Assembly: GCA_003173865.1 (NCBI GenBank)
Contig: PJMF01000021.1
Location: 1 to 55,103 of the forward strand
Direction: 5' to 3'
From: Minisyncoccota bacterium
GTDB taxonomy: Bacteria > Patescibacteriota > Microgenomatia > UBA1400 > PJMF01
DNA length: 55,103 nt
Below are positions 17,898 through 20,446 of this stretch, one piece after another. Within the stretch, counting starts at the first letter, position 1; every line of letters begins with the position of its first letter. Under the pieces are notes generated by a model. That model had not been told where the DNA came from, did no database searches, and was given only the letters and a program-made list of their open reading frames with translations. Position numbers and translations under genes: made by a program.

Positions 17898-18065
17898 ATG
17901 GGTAATATTTTAAAGTTTGTTAAAGAATTACATCGAAAATATAAAAAAGAATTTGAATCTAAAAAAGTATCAAAGGATCTTTCTATAAACTATAAGAAAT
18001 ACTTATATGGAGAAAAACGAAAATCTCTTGATGTTGACTTTGCAAAATTAGCTACTTTACCTTAG
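17898..18065 (+). CDS. small basic hypothetical protein (55 aa)
   Basis: ATG ORF MGNILKFVKELHRKYKKEFESKKVSKDLSINYKKYLYGEKRKSLDVDFAKLATLP, absent from the supplied ORF track because of length. Confidence 0.45.
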   Translation: MGNILKFVKELHRKYKKEFESKKVSKDLSINYKKYLYGEKRKSLDVDFAKLATLP

Positions 18066-18083
18066 GATACGCTCGTATATAAT
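18056..18083 (+). promoter_or_regulatory. Candidate promoter for the Cys leader
   Basis: TTTACC (18056-18061), 16-nt spacer, perfect TATAAT (18078-18083). Confidence 0.5.
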
Positions 18084-18093
18084 CGCCTGATCC

Positions 18094-18168
18094 ATGTTAC
18101 AACGCTTAGCACAATCATTCTCTTGTTGTTGCACTTTCATAAAAAGAGGAGTGCGTGATTGTTGTTAA
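18094..18168 (+). CDS. Cysteine-rich leader peptide MLQRLAQSFSCCCTFIKRGVRDCC
   Basis: 24-codon ORF with Cys-Cys-Cys and terminal Cys-Cys, between a TATAAT promoter and a terminator, one gene upstream of cysS. Confidence 0.7.
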   Translation: MLQRLAQSFSCCCTFIKRGVRDCC

Positions 18169-18191
18169 AATTTAAAAAAAACAAAACATAC

Positions 18192-18217
18192 AACCTCCTC
18201 AAATCGGAGGTTTTTTT
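18192..18217 (+). terminator. Attenuator terminator hairpin
   Basis: AACCTCC (18192-18198) / GGAGGTT (18206-18212) followed by a T tract through 18217. Confidence 0.75.
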
Positions 18218-18251
18218 ATGAAAATTGATATCAAAAAAAAGAAAGAAATAT

Positions 18252-18995
18252 ATGGGAGCATCATTAGAAACACAAATCTCAGACATGAGTATTCAATCAT
18301 TTACAGCAGAACAGAGAACAGACACTCATTATCTGAAAAAACATCCTGAGCAACTGGAGAGTGAGATCTGGAAAAATGCCATGATTGAGAGAAGTATGGC
18401 AACTGCTCTAGATGCTCTTCAAAATAATCAGCCGGTGTTACTTACTTTGTACGATGATACTTTAAGAGGAGGCAAACATACTGTCTACGCATTTTTTGAT
18501 CCCTTGAAGCCAAAGATAGTTCTTGAAATGCCCCCTGAGGGAGGACAAACGCCAACAATGCTTCATGGTTTAGAAATAATCGTTCGTTTGCTAAAAGATA
18601 CAGGTGCACAGAATGCTGCGATTCGCGAACTTGAAATAAAACATATGCAAAGAAGTGAAATTGTTCAGTTACGTAATCAAACAGTTCAAGATCATCGTGC
18701 ATTGGTTCCACTTGTCATACCACTCAATGTTCATCCCGATGGAGTAGTTGCAATTAACTTTCATTCGCAAGATCGTAAGGTGAACATGCGGCAAGTCGTG
18801 GGTAGATATTTAGAATTTCTTACGAGTCCGGACGCAATGAACGTCTTTGCGAATGGAATATTTCACTTGATTTTAGGATATGACGGTCGTGTGGGAGTTA
18901 AAAATGAATATAAAACGTACGAAATTGGTAATTATGCAGAGTTAGAAAAAAGGTACAATCACCTCGACGCACATCGGTTGAAAACTGACTTATGA
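18252..18995 (+). CDS. hypothetical protein (gene between Cys leader and cysS)
   Basis: Long ORF (track start TTG 18225; ATG at 18252). A frame-offset ATG at 18218 has the only good SD. Confidence 0.7.
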   Translation: MGASLETQISDMSIQSFTAEQRTDTHYLKKHPEQLESEIWKNAMIERSMATALDALQNNQPVLLTLYDDTLRGGKHTVYAFFDPLKPKIVLEMPPEGGQTPTMLHGLEIIVRLLKDTGAQNAAIRELEIKHMQRSEIVQLRNQTVQDHRALVPLVIPLNVHPDGVVAINFHSQDRKVNMRQVVGRYLEFLTSPDAMNVFANGIFHLILGYDGRVGVKNEYKTYEIGNYAELEKRYNHLDAHRLKTDL

Positions 18996-20446
18996 AACTC
19001 TACAACACCCTCTCTCGCACAATTGAAGAAGTCCAGCCGCGCCAATCGGGCCACATCGGTCTCTACGCGTGTGGTTTGACCGTTTATGATTTCACTCACC
19101 TTGGTCACTTGCGCAAGTACACCATGGATGATGTGCTGATTCGGACGCTGCGTTACTCAGGGTTTGATGTGAAGTTTGTGCAAAATGTGACCGACGTCGG
19201 ACACCTTTCGTCTGATGCAGATACTGGCGAAGATAAACTGGAAAAAGGTGCAAAGAAATACGGGAAAACGGTTTGGGAAATTGCGCGTGAGTTTGAGGAG
19301 TATTTTTGGAAATCAATGGACTTGATGGGAAATTTAAGGCCGGATGTGAGTTGCCGAGCAACAGAACATATCGTGCAACAACTCGAAATGGTCAAAACGC
19401 TTGAGCAAAAGGGATTTGCATATGTAATTCCAGAAGACGGTGTGTACTTTGATACCTCAAAAGTTGATGACTATGGGAAACTCGCGCGCCTCGACCTCAA
19501 AAAACTGCAGGAAGGGGCGCGCGTAGAGCGAGTCGCCGGCAAGCGCAATCCGACGGACTTTGCGTTGTGGAAGTTCGAACGCCCTGGCGAAAATCGAGCC
19601 ATGGTTTGGGAAAGTCCGTGGGCAAAACGCAGTTTTCCGGGTTGGCACATTGAGTGTTCTGCAATGGCGATTCATTATCTGGGCGAGCAGTTTGATGTTC
19701 ACACAGGTGGAATTGATCATATTCCCGTTCATCACACCAATGAAATTGCGCAAGCAGAGGCAGCGACTGGGAAAAAACCATTCGTGAAGTACTGGATACA
19801 TCACAATCATTTATTTGTAGATGGCACCAAGATGAGTAAGTCACTTGGCAATTTTTTCACGATTGATGATGTGCTCGCCAAAGGTTTTGCGCCGCAGGCG
19901 CTGCGTTTGCTTTTCTTAACTTCGCACTATCGCTCCGAAATGAACTTTACGTGGCAAAACTTAGCAGGTGCACAAAAAACTTGGTTGCGTTTGTTACGTT
20001 CATTAGAGGAGTTCAAACAAGAATCAGGCCGCACAGTGTTGAGTCCAGAAAAGTTAGCGAAGAGTAATGAGTTTCGCACACGCTTTTTTCAAGCAATGGA
20101 AAATGATCTAAACACGCCTGAAGCAGTGGCCGTGCTGTGGGAGGTTATTAAGTCAAATATTCCCGCCGAAGATAAATATGATTTGCTTCGCGAGTTTGAT
20201 CAAGTATTAGGACTTAGTTTCGAAAAAGCTGTTGCCAACCTCAATGCCAACTCACCTAAAACTCTAGTCATTCCTGCAGATGTTCAGTCTCTTGTGGACC
20301 AACGCACACAAGCAAAACTGCAAAAAGAGTGGCAACGAGCCGACCAATTACGTCAAGAAATAGAGTTGCGTGGATATCAAGTGGTTGACCGTCCTAGTAA
20401 GGATACCGAGGTGGTTCCGGTGGCCACAACACTAAAAGCAACGTAA
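18992..20446 (+). CDS. cysS: Cysteinyl-tRNA synthetase
   Basis: YACGLTVYDFTHLGHLRKY (HIGH-like), WHIECSAMAIHYLGEQFDVHTGGIDHIPVHHTNE, KMSKSLGNF. Confidence 0.96.
   Translation: MKLYNTLSRTIEEVQPRQSGHIGLYACGLTVYDFTHLGHLRKYTMDDVLIRTLRYSGFDVKFVQNVTDVGHLSSDADTGEDKLEKGAKKYGKTVWEIAREFEEYFWKSMDLMGNLRPDVSCRATEHIVQQLEMVKTLEQKGFAYVIPEDGVYFDTSKVDDYGKLARLDLKKLQEGARVERVAGKRNPTDFALWKFERPGENRAMVWESPWAKRSFPGWHIECSAMAIHYLGEQFDVHTGGIDHIPVHHTNEIAQAEAATGKKPFVKYWIHHNHLFVDGTKMSKSLGNFFTIDDVLAKGFAPQALRLLFLTSHYRSEMNFTWQNLAGAQKTWLRLLRSLEEFKQESGRTVLSPEKLAKSNEFRTRFFQAMENDLNTPEAVAVLWEVIKSNIPAEDKYDLLREFDQVLGLSFEKAVANLNANSPKTLVIPADVQSLVDQRTQAKLQKEWQRADQLRQEIELRGYQVVDRPSKDTEVVPVATTLKAT

Follow-up and report, generated by a model that had tools for sequence, protein, structure and literature searches.

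A candidate poly-cysteine leader attenuator upstream of cysS in a Microgenomates bacterium, with cognate-codon leaders before other tRNA synthetase genes of its order

The window analysed here is a 55,103-nt stretch (contig PJMF01000021.1, assembly GCA_003173865.1) from a Minisyncoccota bacterium with a genome of 1.2 Mb. Re-reading of the sequence recovered all the elements that an earlier note on this DNA had described upstream of cysS (TATAAT, the short open reading frame with its Cys codons, GAGGAG, CTCCTC, GCACT/AGTGC and the terminator), each at the position given there, and cysS does lie one gene downstream. The features are as follows:

18056–18083, forward strand: promoter-like site, TTTACC (-35-like, 18056–18061), 16 nt, TATAAT (18078–18083)
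18094–18168, forward strand: leader ORF of 24 codons, MLQRLAQSFSCCCTFIKRGVRDCC followed by a stop, with its ATG 10 nt past the -10 box
18124–18132, forward strand: putative regulatory codons TGT TGT TGC (Cys 11–13), read from the sequence; CC or CCC is kept in eight genomes
18131–18137, forward strand: region 1, GCACUUU, pairing with GGAGUGC at 18148–18154 (1:2 segment, -7.3 kcal/mol)
18146–18154, forward strand: region 2, 5' strand of the predicted antiterminator, with a GAGGAG core at 18146–18151 (2:3 segment, -12.5 kcal/mol)
18160–18165, forward strand: second Cys codon pair (codons 23–24), directly before the leader stop
18192–18200, forward strand: region 3, AACCUCCUC, common to antiterminator and terminator (AACCTCC 18192–18198, CTCCTC 18195–18200)
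18206–18217, forward strand: region 4, GGAGGUU with a T7 run (GGAGGTT 18206–18212, T run 18211–18217)
18225–18995, forward strand: 256-aa ORF, start TTG 18225 or ATG 18252, the first gene past the terminator
18992–20446, forward strand: cysS, cysteinyl-tRNA synthetase (tRNA-synt_1e, E 3e-99), the presumed regulated gene

The TTTACC/TATAAT site is the joint best promoter-like match in the 11 kb scanned, with 10 of 12 positions matching, and the short distance from its -10 box to the leader ATG suggests that the transcript is leaderless or near-leaderless. Downstream, the stop of the 256-aa ORF and the start of cysS share ATGA, and owing to this overlap the two genes are probably co-transcribed. 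The 256-aa ORF had no relatives among 51 further genomes of the order, the genome_contigs or the viral contigs, and by sequence comparison this gene is a local insertion not seen in the relatives of the window. Ahead of the leader, and past the conserved upstream gene (ending KLQNDRKKLSSAG), a 55-codon ORF without a Pfam match occupies 17898–18065; it is absent from the related loci L003 and L004. Searches for a second copy of the leader region in the genome of the window, and for leader-related DNA in phages, found none.

The leader region can form two mutually exclusive stems. The terminator stem (3:4, AACCUCC/GGAGGUU, 18192–18212, -9.1 to -9.7 kcal/mol) excludes the GAGGAG/CUCCUC core of the 2:3 antiterminator, and the core letters of the 1:2 pairing are GCACT (18131–18135) and AGTGC (18150–18154). 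The complementarity of the antiterminator duplex exceeds that of shuffled spacers (p about 0.003), and the duplex is lengthened by part of the second Cys pair (GUUGU with ACAAC). The 1:2, 2:3, 3:4 layout proposed in the earlier note is consistent with these segment energies and with the same order of stems in relatives of genus g17. Folding under constraint gave 2:3 (-12.5 to -13.3 kcal/mol) in the RNA synthesised ahead of arm 4 when the Cys codons were blocked; blocking the stop codon instead abolished 2:3 and left the terminator able to form. Once arm 4 is present, the terminator is favoured in the full window RNA at equilibrium in every state, even with the Cys codons masked, so that read-through must hinge on timing, as in a kinetic switch.

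Similar leaders precede cysS in part of the order. The gene was found in 85 of 88 genomes of the order, and 81 upstream regions were examined, among which a poly-Cys (CC or CCC) leader followed by a terminator was identified in eight genomes of five families. Outside the family of the window, poly-Cys leaders occur in five genomes of four families, and a sixth genome has a leader with one Cys codon and the full stem set. The leaders of the relatives are:

G016 (L003), genus g17: MTTTRTLSCCRFVQ, then stop
G028 (L004), genus g17: MQTTQHFRCCCLSSN, then stop
G081 (L125): MHESRSLFCCCPL
G049 (L132): MNIKLVCCLFSLT
G084 (L136): MLENVCCCPCEDGGECTC
G086 (L159): MKNLSCCPCDDGEGECSC
G035 (L161): MFNTKNFSLFCCCNSYVQGRFFC
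G046 (L157), one Cys codon: MLSINSKQVFVCIYLHI

The nearest relatives of the window belong to genus g17, with cysS 73% identical. Both g17 leaders sit between cysS and the same upstream gene as in the window, and carry GTCCAG / CTTGGAC / GTCCAAG ahead of a terminator, the stems following in the order 1:2, 2:3, 3:4. Although the intervening 256-aa gene weakens the link from leader to cysS in the genome of the window, no gene separates the two in L003 and L004, and in L004 the terminator comes immediately before cysS, which starts about 19 nt past the T run. TATAMT lies 7–8 nt ahead of the leader ATG in L003, L004 and L125 as well. The leader is nevertheless absent in most of the order, as only some 9 of the 81 cysS regions have it, and in many leaderless members cysS starts directly past its own -10-like box. 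In 80 cysS regions from other orders of the class, no leader was identified apart from two unconvincing matches (L192, L186). One good case was found before cysS in 79 diverse genomes, namely a Betaproteobacteria MAG (L036, 2343–2426) in which the leader MHYPLIACCCRCRCTSFEVQMCRAGSH and a strong terminator directly precede cysS; it is likely an independent case. A simple scan of the order for a -10/ATG/Cys-Cys pattern was too unspecific and was dropped.

The stem sequences vary too widely among families to be placed in a single alignment. In place of covariance models, complementarity was therefore judged leader by leader against shuffled spacers. Regions 2, 3 and 4 change jointly, as GAGGAG/CCTCCTC/GGAGG, CTTGGAC/GTCCAAG/GACGG or GGGGA/TCCCC/GGGG. 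Thus, CTTGGAC is found with GTCCAAG in L003 and L004 (3' arm GACGG or GGCGG), CTTGGGC pairs with GTCCAAG in L125, GGGGA with TCCCC in L136 and L159, and GGAGGTT with AACCTCC in L161. The antiterminator is significant (p < 0.05) in seven of the nine cysS leaders, the exceptions being L132 and L136, and the combined p of 9e-8 overstates independence because L003/L004 and L136/L159 are close relatives. All nine leaders are separated from the gene by an intrinsic terminator and its T run. The earlier note had made its reading depend on Cys codons and competing stems in homologous leaders, and the relatives turned out to carry them.

The spacing of these elements also fits a stalled ribosome, which reaches about 12–15 nt downstream of its A site. 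Region 2 begins 14 nt past the end of the first Cys run in the window and 13–21 nt past the Cys run in eight of nine cysS leaders, so that a ribosome stalled there would cover region 1 and leave region 2 free.

Taken together, the window presents a short ORF, a cognate codon run, an intrinsic terminator, an exclusive antiterminator and a matching stall geometry, and we consider it highly likely that the cysS leader belongs to the trp/his/phe type of ribosome-mediated transcription attenuators and senses Cys-tRNA charging. This reading, already put forward in the earlier note, draws on anatomy, on conservation in the eight genomes of five families, on covarying complementarity and on stall-to-stem geometry. 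Transcription would start just ahead of the leader ATG. With ample Cys-tRNA, the leading ribosome would clear codons 11–13, reach the stop and cover region 2; region 3 would then pair with region 4, and transcription would end at the T run, at about 18217. With scarce Cys-tRNA, the translating ribosome would stall at codons 11–13 and cover region 1, which would allow the 2:3 pairing; the terminator would come too late, and the polymerase would read into the 256-aa gene and cysS. Induction by low Cys-tRNA is what such a leader would be expected to confer. The second Cys pair (18160–18165) complicates the scheme, as the earlier note had cautioned. Terminal Cys codons recur in L136, L159 and L161. 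Together with that of the window, these are the four leaders whose stop is distant, and all four finish in Cys codons; none of the five whose stop is near does so. A ribosome stalled at the terminal pair should mask region 2, and the pair could thus act in the opposite way.

Another explanation, which we hold to be very improbable, is that the terminator merely ends upstream transcription, that the Cys-rich ORF is accidental and that cysS has its own promoter. Most family members indeed have a -10-like box directly before the cysS start and no leader, and terminator-like sites are common in AT-rich DNA; between 13000 and 24000, the 11 terminator-like matches equal the 10.6 expected from shuffles. 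The weight of the argument rests on the combination of elements and its conservation, not on the terminator count alone. When the 363-nt intergenic region was shuffled 4,000 times with dinucleotides preserved, however, a CCC short ORF arose in 4 shuffles and in no case ahead of a terminator, and no shuffle gave a 5-Cys short ORF. Of the sequences upstream of 46 ORFs in the window, that of the cysS leader alone combines an XXX-run short ORF with a terminator. When runs of every residue were counted in the terminator-linked short ORFs of the 81 cysS regions, those of Cys came first (CCC in 5 regions, Leu next with 2). All 5 CCC regions carry a terminator, and the reverse strand yielded no Cys run in such ORFs. 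An accidental ORF also accords poorly with a promoter placed before the leader in leader-bearing relatives and with the short distance from T run to cysS in L004, and the cognate matching across synthetases described below cannot be an accident.

Two further explanations accept the ORF as functional. It might work through translational coupling or ribosome-dependent unmasking rather than termination. This would follow the mycobacterial example, in which leaderless poly-Cys short ORFs that precede Cys-related operons are described as attenuators (cited in PMC13236596). We regard this as very unlikely here, given that each of the nine leaders has a T-run terminator and an antiterminator that competes with it, the latter non-significant in two. 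That the leader encodes a functional Cys-rich peptide, binding metal or responding to redox state, appears extremely unlikely. Although the L136 and L159 peptides (CCCPCEDGGECTC, CCPCDDGEGECSC) resemble metal-binding motifs and terminal Cys codons recur in four leaders, the peptides are not conserved across families outside the Cys run, and runs of Thr, Tyr, Leu, Phe or Ile are similarly arranged before other synthetase genes.

An attenuator of this kind has several known counterparts. The trp/his/phe leader-peptide attenuators of Proteobacteria, which include that of the synthetase operon pheST in E. coli, share with the window a cognate-codon leader ORF, the 1:2/2:3/3:4 stems and the stall geometry; the window differs in its near-leaderless start and in the synthetase targets of its kind. 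T-box riboswitches likewise act on synthetase genes by transcription antitermination in response to uncharged tRNA, whereas the window has no tRNA-binding architecture and its sensor would be the peptide ORF; a T-box for cysS was rejected, with no RF00230 match in the window, L003 or L004. The closest counterpart is uORFC-8-2, with 145 examples upstream of cysS in Rhodobacterales, for which the same mechanism has been proposed (PMC8632094), and ribosome-mediated attenuation of cysS is thus already a known kind. In both, tandem Cys codons within a short ORF are accompanied by two stems and a U-run terminator upstream of cysS. In contrast, uORFC-8-2 is restricted to Alphaproteobacteria, exclusively Rhodobacterales, with Cys usually at codons 14–15, while the leader in the window belongs to Microgenomates, has CCC at codons 11–13, is near-leaderless, is part of a multi-synthetase set and has no known sequence resemblance to it. 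An Rfam scan of the window gave no match of any family, which would bear on uORFC-8-2 only if that motif is in Rfam.

Poly-Cys leaders of actinobacteria lie upstream of cys operons and have no terminators (PMC1262725), and leaderless poly-Cys short ORFs of mycobacteria have been interpreted as attenuators (Canestrari 2020, as cited in PMC13236596). These ORFs resemble that of the window in being leaderless or near-leaderless and in preceding Cys-related genes, but they stand before cys/cbs operons without a terminator, whereas the window combines cysS with an intrinsic terminator and an antiterminator. The mycobacterial type of translational attenuator, which lacks a terminator and acts via translation or Rho, was rejected on finding the intrinsic terminator in the window. 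In bacilli, His leader peptides upstream of hisS paralogs (PMC2965389) are another case of leader-peptide attenuation of a synthetase outside Proteobacteria, for another amino acid and in another phylum.

The upstream regions of other synthetase genes were scanned for cognate leaders in nine genomes. Judged from sequence, the switch is not peculiar to Cys, as cognate-codon leaders with terminators also precede thrS, tyrS, leuS, pheS, ileS and trpS:

tyrS (L259–L261): MKHHCFSASYYYRSQYAW, MELSTRAFIYYYTYHQM, MHKISVCASYYYSSPTLGE
leuS (L292, L296, L299): MTFSRGLSLLLLTT, MNLCVAQLSLLLPLC, MQNKSLLTSLLLKKHI
pheS (L336–L337): MKTNSVTSRFFFFTQQ, MTNNNFFKFTQR
ileS (L275, L277): MKNFNYKTQVIII, MLNQIIIIK
trpS (L267): MTRTTARSSWWASLK
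thrS: MKLVIRITTTTTIR; and, in the genome of the window itself (L308, G000:C20), MLHEISRTTTTTTIPVGE

Runs of at least three residues gave 25 residue-to-gene matches among 173 loci, cysS included, of which 17 are cognate, compared with a mean of 3.2 and a maximum of 9 in 10,000 permutations; with cysS left out, there are 12 cognate matches against a permutation maximum of 6. A poly-Thr leader with a terminator precedes thrS at 22 of 30 family loci (L362–L391). As a group, the non-Cys leaders pass the antiterminator test (combined p 9e-11); the two ileS leaders have terminators but no significant antiterminator, and L260 and L292 are not individually significant. Cognate leaders were absent before hisS (nine genes searched for a His leader), valS, metG, proS and serS in the genomes sampled.

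Other RNA elements were observed near these genes. T-box-like GGTGGNACC motifs stand before a terminator-like hairpin at L278, L281 and L289 (ileS), L317 and L319 (serS) and L332 (glyS), of which only L332 matches RF00230, weakly and below threshold (38 bits, E 2e-5). In the genome of the window, a tRNA gene (tRNA-Trp, anticodon CCA by eye) lies directly upstream of trpS (L268, 1378–1449), and a DUF3800-V RNA (RF02964, 62.8 bits) lies near ileS (L278, 264–358).

We think it likely that this Microgenomates lineage controls many synthetase genes (cysS, thrS, tyrS, leuS, pheS, ileS and trpS) by near-leaderless cognate-codon leaders with intrinsic terminators, and others by T-box-like elements. 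The kind itself is known; new are its presence in Microgenomates (CPR) and the proposed extension to a regulon of several synthetase genes. Our search of open-access journal papers found none that links leader-peptide attenuators or T-boxes to CPR or Patescibacteria. The earlier note, which rightly called the genome CPR-like, knew of no cysS attenuator from such a genome; cysS attenuation as such had been proposed before for Rhodobacterales.

To our knowledge, almost nothing is known about gene regulation in CPR bacteria. These bacteria generally lack amino-acid biosynthesis and live on uptake. If the proposed attenuators are real, reduced CPR genomes would sense individual amino acids and tune the supply of the corresponding synthetases (cysS and at least six others), and an ultra-small bacterial lineage would possess a charged-tRNA-sensing regulon. 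An attenuator that senses charging would also imply coupled transcription and translation in CPR bacteria. The many leader-terminator cassettes are short and movable, and could be tested in a laboratory host without culturing the organism.
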